Origin: Longibacter salinarum
GTDB taxonomy: Bacteria; Bacteroidota; Rhodothermia; Rhodothermales; Salinibacteraceae
Assembly: GCF_002554795.1 (NCBI RefSeq)
Contig: NZ_PDEQ01000002.1
Span: 62,001 to 126,000 of the forward strand
DNA: 64,000 nt
Reading direction: 5' to 3'
In this document: one piece after another, positions 54,677-58,570 of the stretch
How the letters are laid out: each line of letters opens with the position of its first letter
Position numbering within the stretch: position 1 is the stretch's first letter
Program-made: the position numbers and the translations under genes
The notes under the pieces: generated by a model
The model's database searches: none
What the model was told of the DNA's origin: nothing
Seen by the model: only the letters and a program-made list of their open reading frames with translations

Positions 54677-54841
54677 CTCGGTTCTGAACCGAGTCGTTTA
54701 TTCGTTCGAAGGGTGCGCTGCGTTATGATTCCTCTTCGGCGAGTCTTTGCAACCTCGGTCGGTGCCTGTCGTTTGCCCCATGTTTTGCAGCGATGTTTCG
54801 CGTGCTGCCCCGTCGAGTTTCCGTTACCATCCAAGCGTCTC

Positions 54842-55768
54842 ATGAGTCCTTCGTCTATCCTTTCCCGCATCGGCCGCGGGATCGCGCTTGTCAGTTTCCT
54901 TGTGCTGCTCTTCCCTACGGTTACGTCCGCGCAGGACGAGGGACTGGATACGCAGCGCATCATCGATAACCTGAAAATGGAAATTCCTCAGCTTCGCCAG
55001 ACTGGTCAGGTCTCGCTGAGCTCGTTCTCGGATAGTGAGATCGACGGATTCAAGCGCGCGACGCTCACGGTAAATGGGCGTCAGATTCCCATGCTGGTAA
55101 CGCCGGACGGATCGCAGGCGCTGTTGCTCGCAGGGCCGCCGATCAACGTTAGCCGGTCGGTAGAAGAGGTACAGGACGCTCTGGCTGCGGAGTCAAGCGA
55201 ACGCGGCGCAGCCCTGGCTCGTGCGGCAAAAGGGATGCCTGTGCGCGGTCCGGCCGACGCGCCTGTGACCCTGGTCGAGTTTTCGGACTTCCAGTGCCCC
55301 TACTGCGCGCGAGCGTCGAGTCTCGTCAACGAGCTGATGTCGCGATATCCCGAGACGCTGAATGTCGTGTACATCCACTACCCGCTGCCGATGCACGAGT
55401 GGGCCCGACCCGCAGCCGTCGCATCGCAGTGCGCCGCGCGCCAGAGCGACGACGCATTCTGGACGCTACATGACGCATACTTCGACAATCAGAACGACCT
55501 CACCGAGGCAAACGTCGTGGAGAAGAGCGAGTCGTATCTCGCAGACGCGTCGATCGACATGGACGAGTGGAGGACGTGCGCACAGGACTCGGACTCAGCT
55601 GCGCACCAGGAAGTGCAGGAGACGATTGAGGCCAATATGCAGGCGGGCCGTTCGGTCAACGTCACGGGGACGCCCTCCTTCTACATCAACGGACAGAAGG
55701 TGCAGGGCGCGCGCTCGGTCGAAGCATTTGCCCGTCTGATCGACCAAGCTGCGGCGAACGCCCAGTAG
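54842..55768 (+). CDS. DsbA-family thioredoxin-fold protein, secreted (paralogue 1)
   Basis: 308 residues. Signal peptide GIALVSFLVLLFPTVTSAQ. An N-terminal domain of about 110 residues (IIDNLKMEIPQLRQTGQVSL, a predicted disulfide-independent prodomain) is followed by a DsbA/DSBA-like thioredoxin domain. Active site FSDFQCPYCARASSL (CPYC); cis-Pro region GTPSFYINGQKVQGARS. The role is probably oxidation or isomerisation of disulfides in the periplasm. Cys residues in SQCAARQ and RTCAQD could form a second pair. The next gene encodes a close relative, 53 nt downstream. Confidence 0.88.
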   Translation: MSPSSILSRIGRGIALVSFLVLLFPTVTSAQDEGLDTQRIIDNLKMEIPQLRQTGQVSLSSFSDSEIDGFKRATLTVNGRQIPMLVTPDGSQALLLAGPPINVSRSVEEVQDALAAESSERGAALARAAKGMPVRGPADAPVTLVEFSDFQCPYCARASSLVNELMSRYPETLNVVYIHYPLPMHEWARPAAVASQCAARQSDDAFWTLHDAYFDNQNDLTEANVVEKSESYLADASIDMDEWRTCAQDSDSAAHQEVQETIEANMQAGRSVNVTGTPSFYINGQKVQGARSVEAFARLIDQAAANAQ

Positions 55769-55821
55769 AGACTCGCTTCTGGACGCCTGCTTACACGGAC
55801 TCCCATTTGGCTTCGCCCGAC

Positions 55822-56730
55822 ATGTCACGTTTTGCCGTTGTTGCATTCTGCGTCGTTTTCGCTTCCAGCCTCCTCATGGGGTGCGGCGCGTCGGACTCCA
55901 GTCCCGAGGTGAATGAGCAAAAGATCCTCGCCAATCTCCGACTGGAAATTCCGCAGGTTCGCGATGCCGATTCGCTGCGCATCGACTCCCTCAAGGAAAG
56001 TCAGGTGGATGGCTTCTACCAGGGAGAGCTGGTCGTGAACAATCGGAATCGGGTCTACGTGATGATCCGGAAGGACGAGTCCGAGGCGCTGCTCCTTGCC
56101 GGCCCGCCGCTCGACATCGGGCGCACGGCCGAAGAGATGCAGGCCTCCAAGGAGGACCAGCAGCGGGAACGAGCGGATCTACTGAAGAACGCGTCGCAGG
56201 GGATGCCGGCTCTCGGGCCGGACGAAGCGCCGGTGACGATGCTTGAGTTTTCGGACTTCCAGTGCCCCTATTGCGCGCGGGCCACGTCGATGGTCGAAGA
56301 GCTGCACAACCGATATCCGGATCAGCTCCGTATCGTGTTCATGCACTTCCCGCTGTCGTCGCACGAGTGGGCGCGTCCGGCTGCCGTCGCGGCCCAGTGC
56401 GCGGCACGCCAAAGTGAGGATGCGTTCTGGACGCTCCACGACTTCTATTTCGCCAACCAGGATGTCTTCACTCCGAAAAACGTGGTTCCGCAGAGTGAGG
56501 AGCAGTTGGCAGACGCGACGATTGATCTGCAGCAGTGGAGAGCGTGCGCCACGGATCGCCAATCGGATGTGCATCGCTCCGTTGTGAAGCAGGTGAATGC
56601 CTCGCTCGAAGCCGGCAAGCAGGCCGGCGTGACAGGGACGCCATCTTTCTTCGTTAACGGCGAAAAGGTACAGGGTGCGCGCTCAGTGGACGCGCTGGCT
56701 CAGAAGATCGAAGCTGCAGCGGGGAACTGA
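55822..56730 (+). CDS. DsbA-family thioredoxin-fold lipoprotein (paralogue 2)
   Basis: 302 residues from ATG 55822. It has the same architecture as the preceding gene and is strongly similar over the whole length: FSDFQCPYCARATSM, HFPLSSHEWARPAAVAAQCA, GTPSFFVNGEKVQGARSVDA. Unlike paralogue 1 it has a lipobox (LMGC), so it is membrane-attached rather than soluble. The pair arose by tandem duplication followed by a change of export signal. The stop codon is followed by a (GGGGATT) repeat. Confidence 0.88.
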   Translation: MSRFAVVAFCVVFASSLLMGCGASDSSPEVNEQKILANLRLEIPQVRDADSLRIDSLKESQVDGFYQGELVVNNRNRVYVMIRKDESEALLLAGPPLDIGRTAEEMQASKEDQQRERADLLKNASQGMPALGPDEAPVTMLEFSDFQCPYCARATSMVEELHNRYPDQLRIVFMHFPLSSHEWARPAAVAAQCAARQSEDAFWTLHDFYFANQDVFTPKNVVPQSEEQLADATIDLQQWRACATDRQSDVHRSVVKQVNASLEAGKQAGVTGTPSFFVNGEKVQGARSVDALAQKIEAAAGN

Positions 56731-56737
56731 CGATTGA

Positions 56738-56767
56738 GGATTGGGGATTGGGGATTGGGGATTGGGT
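56738..56767 (+). repeat. (GGGGATT)n repeat directly after a stop codon
   Basis: Four G runs of three or four bases separated by ATT (56743-56766) follow the dsbA-like stop by 12 nt. This is a textbook intramolecular G-quadruplex pattern on the coding strand. Confidence 0.85.
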
Positions 56768-56870
56768 ATTGGCAATGTAGGTGGGAACGAGGACGGTTTT
56801 TGGCGAGCCTGGCAAGAATCCTTTTCTAAGAGGCTTGAATGAAGAGGGATGAGGCGGTATGTTGGCCGAT

Positions 56871-56954
56871 GCGAAGCTAGGGGTGCCCGCCTGCGCGGGC
56901 TGAGAGAGTCTCTTCGAACCTGATCCGGTTTGCACCGGCGAAGGAAAGCTTCTC
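56871..56954 (+). promoter_or_regulatory. TPP (THI-box) riboswitch aptamer
   Basis: Contains GGGGTGCCCGC, the conserved CTGAGAGAG and CGAACCTGATCCGGTTTGC blocks, and GCGAAGGAAAGC. The P1 stem is GAAGCT (56873-56878) with AGCTTC (56947-56952), and the P3 arm CCCGC/GCGGG is present. It therefore binds thiamine pyrophosphate. The gene it precedes on the plus strand is an SDR oxidoreductase (57037). Confidence 0.92.
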
Positions 56955-56992
56955 GCGACCCGATGGTGCCGATCATCCGGTCCTTGGGAACC

Positions 56993-57026
56993 GCTGGTTT
57001 CGCGTCAATCACTTTTTGAAGCCAGC
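56993..57026 (+). promoter_or_regulatory. Candidate expression-platform hairpin of the TPP riboswitch
   Basis: GCTGGTTTC (56993-57001) pairs with GAAGCCAGC (57018-57026), nine pairs including one G-U, just before the start codon at 57037. A second AGCTTC (57024-57029) inside the 3' arm could compete for the P1 strand. No T run follows, so control of translation start is more likely than termination. Confidence 0.55.
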
Positions 57027-57036
57027 TTCCATTTCT

Positions 57037-57801
57037 ATGTCGTCTCTTGACTCCCAGGTCGTCGTTATTTCCGGTGCCAGTCGTGGCCTTGGTGCTGCCA
57101 TTGCCCGCGCTGCCGCAAATGAAGGCGCTAGCGTCGTGGTCAACTATTTCCAGAGCGAGGCAAAAGCCGATGCCGTCGCGAAGGAGATCGGGGAGGCAGC
57201 TCTACCGGTTCAGGCGGACGTGCGCGATGCCGATGCCGTGCGTGACATGGTAGATGCGGCCGAGAATCATTTCGGTGCGCCGGTGACCCGTGCCGTGCAC
57301 AACGCGCTGATCGACTTTCAATTCGACGCCGAAAATCGTTCCACGCTCGAGGAGATCGACTGGGACGAGTATCAGGTGCAGACGGAAGGGGCGGTGCAGG
57401 GAGCGCTCAACCTGATGCAGGCGTGCCTGCCGTCGATGAGAGATGCCGGCGCAGGGCGTTTTGTGGCGATCGGGTCGAATCTCGTTCAGAACCCGGTGGT
57501 GCCGTATCACGACTACACCACGAGCAAGTCCGCTCTTCTCGGATTCGTGCGCAACGCTGCTCAGGAGCTGGGGCCTGAAGGCATCACGGCCAACATGGTG
57601 TCTGGAGGCCTTCTGCAGACGACCGACGCCAGTGCAGCGACATCCGACGAGGTCTTCGGAATCATCGAGCAAACGACGCCCCTACGTCGCGTCACGACCC
57701 CGGAGGAAGTGGCCGATGCGGTCCTGTTTTTCCTGTCCCCATGGGCACGTGCCGTGACCGGGCAGAACTTGATCGTCGACGGCGGATTGGTCATGAAGTA
57801 G
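57037..57801 (+). CDS. SDR-family oxidoreductase (FabG-like), under a TPP riboswitch
   Basis: 254 residues. Rossmann motif SGASRGLGAAIARAAANEGA, then AIGSNLVQNPVVPYHDYTTSKSALLGF with the catalytic Ser, Tyr and Lys. The C-terminal GGLLQTTDAS...NLIVDGGLVM resembles 3-oxoacyl-ACP reductase. The NNAG motif is replaced by AVHNALID, so the third active-site contact is unusual. The ATG at 57037 lies 11 nt after the platform hairpin. Control by TPP suggests a role in thiamine supply or a TPP-linked pathway, not fatty-acid synthesis. tsaB follows 43 nt downstream and may be cotranscribed. Confidence 0.88.
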   Translation: MSSLDSQVVVISGASRGLGAAIARAAANEGASVVVNYFQSEAKADAVAKEIGEAALPVQADVRDADAVRDMVDAAENHFGAPVTRAVHNALIDFQFDAENRSTLEEIDWDEYQVQTEGAVQGALNLMQACLPSMRDAGAGRFVAIGSNLVQNPVVPYHDYTTSKSALLGFVRNAAQELGPEGITANMVSGGLLQTTDASAATSDEVFGIIEQTTPLRRVTTPEEVADAVLFFLSPWARAVTGQNLIVDGGLVMK

Positions 57802-57844: not shown

Positions 57845-58570
57845 ATGGTCCTTCTAGCGATCGAAACCGCGACGCACACCTGTGGGGCTGCGGTCTGTGT
57901 GGATGGCAACGTTGTGGCCGAGAACCACATGCACCGGCCGCGGGCTCACGCGCAGCACCTCACACCGATCATTGAGGACGTGCTGACGCGTGCTTCGGTC
58001 GATCATTCAGAGATCGACGTGGTTGCGGTATCGAAAGGGCCCGGATCATACACCGGGCTCCGCATCGGGGTCAGTACGGCGAAAGGCTGGGCGGAGGCGA
58101 CGGGGGCGGATCTCATCGGCGTGCCCACCCTCGAGGCGCTGGCTGCGACGGTGACACCCCACGCAAGTGAAGGGGAGGTTGTCTGTGCGGCGCTCGATGC
58201 GCGGCGCGACGAGGTCTTTGCCGCTGCGTACCGGATGCGCGAAGTTGTGGGGGATGGCGAGAAGACGCATCCGCACCCGTGGACGGGCCGGTTGAAGCTG
58301 CAAGCGGCCGCCTCCGCGATGAACGTAAAAGAGTTGCCGGACTGGATCGGCGTCAAGAAGGCGCGGGTGCGTGTAATCGGCACGGGTGCCGCGAAGGTCG
58401 AGCCCGTCCTCCGGTCGGTCGGCATCAAGGTGCGAGTTGTGCCGGACGTGGTCTCTCGTCCGTCGGCCGCGTGGGTGGCACGGTGTGCTCTCGAAATGGT
58501 TGGCCGTGGCCAGAAAGCGGAGCCCAAGACGTTCGAGCCCATGTATCTTAAGGCGTTTCATGTGGGCTGA
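57845..58570 (+). CDS. tsaB: tRNA threonylcarbamoyladenosine biosynthesis protein TsaB
   Basis: Partner of TsaD in making t6A at position 37 of ANN-decoding tRNAs. 241 residues with TsaB motifs: LLAIETATHTCGAAVCVDG at the N-terminus, LTPIIEDVLTRASVDHSEID, VSKGPGSYTGLRIGVSTAKGWA and ALDARRDEVFAAAYR. The length is usual. Its mRNA may begin at the riboswitch-controlled SDR gene, and it ends at a terminator (58685-58711). Confidence 0.93.
   Translation: MVLLAIETATHTCGAAVCVDGNVVAENHMHRPRAHAQHLTPIIEDVLTRASVDHSEIDVVAVSKGPGSYTGLRIGVSTAKGWAEATGADLIGVPTLEALAATVTPHASEGEVVCAALDARRDEVFAAAYRMREVVGDGEKTHPHPWTGRLKLQAAASAMNVKELPDWIGVKKARVRVIGTGAAKVEPVLRSVGIKVRVVPDVVSRPSAAWVARCALEMVGRGQKAEPKTFEPMYLKAFHVG

Follow-up and report, generated by a model that had tools for sequence, protein, structure and literature searches.

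A vitamin B1-sensing switch may control a little-studied reductase with a proposed role in rebuilding oxidised vitamin B1 precursors

Introduction

What would an SDR-family oxidoreductase do in a cell that has placed its gene directly behind a TPP riboswitch? The question is raised by a locus in a 64,000-nucleotide stretch of Longibacter salinarum DNA (contig NZ_PDEQ01000002.1; hereafter the window). An SDR-like gene under THI elements, oarX, was reportedly included in the thiamine regulon by Rodionov et al. in 2002, and to our knowledge no function was assigned to it there. In the open PubMed Central literature, the matches listed included no bacterial oarX, no account of a TPP riboswitch with the SDR described here, and no thiamine operon of the luxE-luxC-SDR type. 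The main text of one paper (PMC3766115), which counts TPP-regulated biosynthesis and transport genes, does not contain the terms short-chain, oxidoreductase or fabG. In this study, the locus was compared with related loci of other genomes and plasmids, and the results suggest that a vitamin B1-sensing switch controls a little-studied reductase helping to rebuild oxidised vitamin B1 precursors.

Results

The riboswitch and its expression platform

A covariance scan of the window gave RF00059 as the sole Rfam match at the gathering score. The TPP aptamer proposed in a first-pass annotation, which was made from the sequence alone, was thus confirmed at full length (Table 1).

Table 1 Features of the riboswitch-SDR locus (positions in the window).
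Feature	Position	Strand	Match or pairing
TPP riboswitch aptamer (THI element), RF00059	56869..56963	+	64.0 bits, gathering score 54.3; E 3e-10; model positions 1-105 of 105
P1 5' strand GCGAAGCTAG	56871..56880	+	would pair with the aptamer 3' strand if TPP is bound, and with S5 (anti-sequester) if not
S5 GCTGGTTTCGCG, shared arm	56993..57004	+	would pair with the P1 5' strand (ON) or S3 (OFF)
S3 GAAGCCAGC, sequester arm	57018..57026	+	3' end 10 nt before the ATG of the SDR gene
SDR family oxidoreductase, NF006393 (PRK08642), 254 aa	57037..57801	+	frame opens with ATG; 408.4 bits, cut-off 292; proposed thiamine-precursor aldehyde reductase
tsaB	57845..58570	+	TIGR03725, 174 bits, cut-off 69.3; not thought to be part of the function

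Downstream of the aptamer, GCTGGTTTC (56993-57001) was predicted to pair with GAAGCCAGC (57018-57026). None of 500 shuffles paired as well as this S5:S3 duplex (-16.2 kcal/mol), and the position of the predicted helix relative to the ATG bears out the hairpin that had been proposed at the start codon. S5 was also predicted to pair with the 5' strand of P1 (-15.2 kcal/mol; again 0 of 500 shuffles as good). In the free RNA, the P1 strand was fully paired with S5 (pair probability 1.00) and the probability of S5:S3 was 0.00; when the aptamer was masked, that of S5:S3 became 1.00. Nine leaders of the lineage were then compared, with the helices of L014 and L016, which automatic pairing missed, set by motif and with L029 excluded. 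Six of the eight P1:S5 pairs were standard in 9/9, and covariation was seen at position 4 (G-C to A-U) and position 7 (A-U to G-C). The predicted probabilities and this covariation describe two mutually exclusive helices. Masking the aptamer raised S5:S3 pairing in most of the nine models; S5:S3 of L018 formed with or without masking, with hardly any rise, and the rise in L028 was weak. A pairing search against shuffles found no platform of the P1/S5/S3 type in the L029 leader.

No clear Shine-Dalgarno sequence was visible in the SDR leader, so that control is probably exerted on how accessible the start region is. The conserved anti-sequester/sequester pair, whose second helix ends shortly ahead of the ATG, points to a switch of the translational type. 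When TPP is scarce, the P1 5' strand would pair with S5 and leave the start region open. When TPP is bound, P1 would close and release S5, and translation would fall as the S5:S3 helix forms just ahead of the start codon. A terminator-type switch was rejected for the window locus, because the sole terminator-like site between 56700 and 58000 lies inside the SDR gene and shuffles give as many. The leaders of Bacillota relatives, by contrast, carry terminator-like hairpins with T runs, as judged by eye.

Neighbours in the window

As had been described, a gap of 43 nt separates the SDR stop codon from the start of tsaB. The idea that it shares the control has found no support so far: the tsaB-accD neighbourhood occurred in only five loci, all of the window's lineage, and the proposed switch would act on translation of the SDR. 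From the same five loci, which keep the order SDR-tsaB-accD, one could argue that the switch works for tsaB/accD or is a relic, and that the SDR is a bystander. We regard this as hardly credible, since the TPP-SDR pair is kept across phyla and also in L121, L122, and L027, near which neither tsaB nor accD was found, and the platform by the SDR start site covaries.

Two tandem DsbA-like thioredoxin genes (54713-56730; 51% identical) stand directly upstream of the riboswitch, and about six copies of GATTGGG lie between the second of them and the riboswitch (56732-56772).

The SDR protein and its family

Among 22 SDR hits in the same genome, only the SDR of the window exceeded the NF006393 cut-off. 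It missed the curated FabG cut-offs by a wide distance (TIGR01830, 132.6 of 297.75 bits; NF004198, 149.3 of 296). In an alignment of 55 family members, from which the outgroup L013 was omitted, S147 (Ser/Thr), Y160, and K164 were kept in 55/55 and Gln115 was invariant. The column of the tetrad Asn, which is Ala119 in the window's SDR, held Asn in 0/55 members and in 6/6 paralogues of the own genome; the Asn of the FabG catalytic tetrad Asn-Ser-Tyr-Lys is thus lost from the family. The first-pass annotation had pointed to AVHNALID in place of the usual NNAG. The motif is indeed present, but [NHS]NA[LF] replaces NNAG in all 55 members, so the replacement is a family trait and is not special to the window's gene. 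The altered chemistry that was suspected with it gains support from the absence of the catalytic Asn throughout the family.

The predicted fold was that of an ordinary FabG-like SDR, with generic FabG-like matches in Foldseek, and was uninformative on the substrate; the mean pLDDT of the model was 76 and the substrate loop was poor. A PDB sequence search at E 1e-30 gave no match. It is very improbable that the protein serves as a 3-oxoacyl-ACP reductase of the FabG type, made in step with TPP status. The database name of the family, the nearest fold, and the presence of accD two genes downstream agree with such an enzyme; however, FabG function was rejected on the missed cut-offs and the lost Asn, and thiamine genes are the neighbours elsewhere.

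In a tree of 66 rows, the NF006393 family was split from the SDRs of the own genome with support 100/99 (L142 was entered from guessed coordinates with one stop stripped; L013 was omitted here too, as were L144 and L148, which repeat L143 and L147 exactly or nearly so). Ten SDRs linked to luxE-luxC fell on one side of a branch with support 95/87, termed here the LUX clade. The window's SDR was placed outside it, among solo, thiM-linked, and monooxygenase-linked copies.

Recurrence of the riboswitch-SDR pair

NF006393 was found in 13/394 genomes of the own phylum (E limit 1e-70) and, at an E limit of 1e-80, in 6/398 of Bacillota, 12/398 of Pseudomonadota, and 8/296 of Actinomycetota, the phylum names of the surveyed sets being taken from the organisms of L034, L031, and L039. 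TPP sites of these genomes were located with Rfam's own model (a MAFFT alignment of 27 aptamers was out of register in several rows). A TPP site on the same strand within 5.5 kb upstream of the SDR was present in 30/39 family-bearing genomes of the four phyla, several of the matches being below the gathering score but strong by E-value. By phylum, the counts were 11/13 in the own phylum, 6/6 in Bacillota, 6/12 in Pseudomonadota, and 7/8 in Actinomycetota. The chance expectation of such a neighbour is estimated at about 0.2%, taking genomes of about 4 Mb with two or three TPP sites each. All ten named relatives with at least 59% identity had a TPP site, that of L029 being below the cut-off, and in two of the ten thiM-thiE-thiD stood between the site and the SDR. 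None of 20 control loci of other SDRs (7 in the own genome and 13 in other genomes) had one. On this sequence evidence, many bacteria have the NF006393 SDR in their thiamine regulon.

TPP control of the family is not universal, because 9/39 genomes (two of the own phylum, six of Pseudomonadota, and one actinobacterium) had no TPP site nearby and none was found for a copy of the SDR on a Caballeronia plasmid. The Pseudomonadota copies without a nearby site are those of L075, L076, L077, L079, L080, L081, and L138, and the genomes of the first six do carry TPP switches and ThiC.

Thiamine genes in the same operons

Searches by blastp with the thiamine genes of L031 and of the own genome identified thiM-thiE-thiD before the SDR in L025, L031, L032, L082, and L083. 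By blastp, thiM, thiD, and thiE follow it in L070, L088, L090, L091, and L092, and tenA follows it in L024; in L088, L090, and L092, further genes separate the SDR from the TPP site. Annotated thiM-thiE-thiD-SDR runs were also seen on Gemmobacter and Neorhizobium plasmids, among 8 of 18 records of SDR-bearing plasmids that were inspected. ThiW, a transporter family for thiamine precursors (thiazole), follows in L097 and its relatives. The pairing thus recurs in distant bacteria, often in salvage operons, which suggests a role of the SDR in rebuilding oxidised vitamin B1 precursors. The first-pass guess of a reductase in thiamine or pyrimidine/thiazole salvage fits this pattern.

Company of luxE-luxC and monooxygenase genes

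LuxC, LuxD, and LuxE form the fatty acid reductase of bioluminescence, and the LuxE and LuxC families convert carboxylic acids to aldehydes. In L072, L073, L074, L084, and L085, a TPP site was followed by genes for a LuxE-like ligase (PF04443), a LuxC-like reductase (PF05893), and the SDR; in three of the five, an ABC transporter stood between the LuxC-like gene and the SDR. Seven of 27 LuxC-bearing plasmids were inspected. Those of Lactiplantibacillus and Levilactobacillus carried an SLC23 permease, luxE, luxC, and the SDR; those of Priestia and two Azospirillum carried the luxE, luxC, SDR run with an ABC transporter; and that of Pantoea carried the luxE-luxC-SDR run. The reading frames of a Niallia plasmid gave ThiW, a permease, luxE, luxC, and the SDR. 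Six of seven luxE-luxC-SDR plasmids had a TPP match at the gathering score, and an aptamer core was recognized by eye in the Priestia leader. On the Niallia megaplasmid, two TPP aptamers stand in tandem ahead of ThiW (L149:2642-2938).

Full-length LuxC was found in 6/42 genomes searched, each time near a TPP site; in G1366, a truncated TPP site stands at the start of the luxC contig, and the SDR has a separate one. Among 329 Bacillota genomes, four had LuxC, and three of these four were luxE-luxC-SDR operons. In L099, an AIR-synthase-like domain fused to ThiN is encoded behind luxE-luxC-SDR, 803-2356 after the SDR start. The window locus is not an operon of this type: the genome search detected no LuxC, and its SDR is not in the LUX clade.

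Given the aldehyde that LuxE and LuxC produce, the SDR behind them most likely makes an alcohol. A gene for an FMN monooxygenase of the NtaA/DmoA type follows the SDR in L071, L078, and plasmids of Mesobacillus, Pseudochrobactrum, and Rhodococcus. Among the solved relatives of this protein are YtnJ, EDTA monooxygenase, and riboflavin lyase, enzymes that break C-S or C-N bonds. In L078, two divergent TPP sites (1024-1429) separate the SDR-monooxygenase pair from an opposite gene that, as judged by eye, resembles a sodium:solute symporter.

Pyrimidine or thiazole as the substrate

Besides the site in the window, two TPP sites were located in the own genome (4.4 Mb, 99.76% complete), one before tenA and the other before a gene for an NMT1/THI5-like protein; both are counted on the pyrimidine side. 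ThiG was present in it and ThiC was not found. Among 42 genomes, all SDR-bearing and partly related to one another, 12 had ThiG without ThiC, none had the reverse, 18 had both, and 12 had neither. The pyrimidine is favoured because ThiG without ThiC occurs in 12/42 genomes, including that of the window, and the reverse never does; the 18 genomes in which the SDR coexists with ThiC speak against it. SLC23 permeases carry nucleobases, and one of this type opens the lactobacillus luxE-luxC-SDR operon. In one luxE-luxC operon, the encoded NMT1/THI5-like binding protein matched the formylaminopyrimidine-binding protein 3ix1 and THI5 weakly, below two uncharacterised proteins.

The NMT1/THI5-like protein of the own genome (L005:5428-6524, C8), which lies behind a TPP switch in this genome without ThiC, had 3ix1 as its nearest solved protein. 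It lacks an evident signal peptide, its gene is not flanked by ABC partner genes, and a CDP-alcohol phosphatidyltransferase gene follows.

The SDR could instead be a thiazole-side enzyme that converts 4-methylthiazole-5-acetaldehyde to hydroxyethylthiazole, the substrate of ThiM. This reading stays alive because ThiM and ThiW occur in the same operons: most thi-linked SDR copies share their operon with thiM, and ThiW not only follows the SDR in L097 and relatives but also opens the Niallia luxE-luxC-SDR operon. We consider it unlikely, however, in view of the one-sided retention of ThiG and of the SLC23 permease and NMT1/THI5-like binding proteins that accompany luxE-luxC-SDR.

Quite improbable, in our estimation, is an action on intact oxidised thiamine, in which thiamine aldehyde derived from thiamine acetic acid would be restored to thiamine. 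Thiamine acetic acid is a reported metabolite in the rat, where it arises from thiamine together with formylaminopyrimidine, according to the title of Amos and Neal (1970) as referenced in PMC7575681. The operons that contain the SDR, however, also contain kinases for the two separate halves of thiamine, which intact thiamine would not need.

Discussion

Taken together, these findings suggest that a translational TPP switch controls an NF006393 SDR which acts as an aldehyde reductase on a thiamine precursor, and that the most likely reaction is the conversion of a pyrimidine aldehyde to HMP. We put the probability of this reading at about 0.57. The SDR would reduce the aldehyde form of the precursor to the alcohol used by the salvage kinases, and the most likely substrate would be 4-amino-2-methylpyrimidine-5-carbaldehyde, with HMP as the product that ThiD takes up. 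The LuxE- and LuxC-like enzymes encoded alongside the SDR in some relatives may form the aldehyde from the matching carboxylic acid, and in others it may come from the NtaA/DmoA-type FMN monooxygenase. At the window locus, it counts against this reading that the genome has no LuxC and that no partner gene adjoins the SDR, whose immediate neighbours are tsaB and accD.

A fuller pathway can be drawn only tentatively, and we rate it somewhat below an even chance. HMP acid or HMP aldehyde would be imported, the LuxE/LuxC relatives would activate the acid and reduce it to the aldehyde, and the NF006393 SDR would make HMP. The whole would be controlled by TPP riboswitches and would have spread between phyla and on plasmids. 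In this scheme, the last step would fall to the window's SDR, with the aldehyde supplied from another source.

If the proposed function is correct, a widespread gene that now bears the name of a fatty-acid enzyme would move to vitamin B1 metabolism, with a concrete guess at its substrate. The TPP-controlled luxE-luxC-SDR operons would represent bacterial recycling of oxidised breakdown products of vitamin B1, and such recycling might supply the vitamin in soils and fermented food in a way that has gone unrecognised.

The present system can be compared with several known ones. The window's SDR scores above the cut-off of NF006393, a family named '3-oxoacyl-ACP reductase' in the database; that name is at odds with the genomic setting, in which the family behaves as one of the thiamine regulon. 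The gene oarX is reportedly also an oxoacyl-reductase-like gene of the thiamine regulon, the two sequence families being compared by description only. Sequestering expression platforms are known for translational TPP switches, and the window's riboswitch resembles these in its full-length aptamer above the gathering score and its predicted sequestering platform; it differs from known TPP riboswitches in preceding an SDR gene and not a thi gene or a known transporter. Salvage of formylaminopyrimidine by TenA, which is TPP-controlled in the window's genome, likewise returns a damaged thiamine pyrimidine to HMP; an amine is hydrolysed there, whereas reduction of an aldehyde is proposed for the SDR. 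Finally, the thiamine operons share with the LuxC/LuxD/LuxE system of bioluminescence the same LuxE and LuxC families, which lead from acid to aldehyde, but here luxE-luxC stand under TPP control and beside an SDR instead of luciferase.
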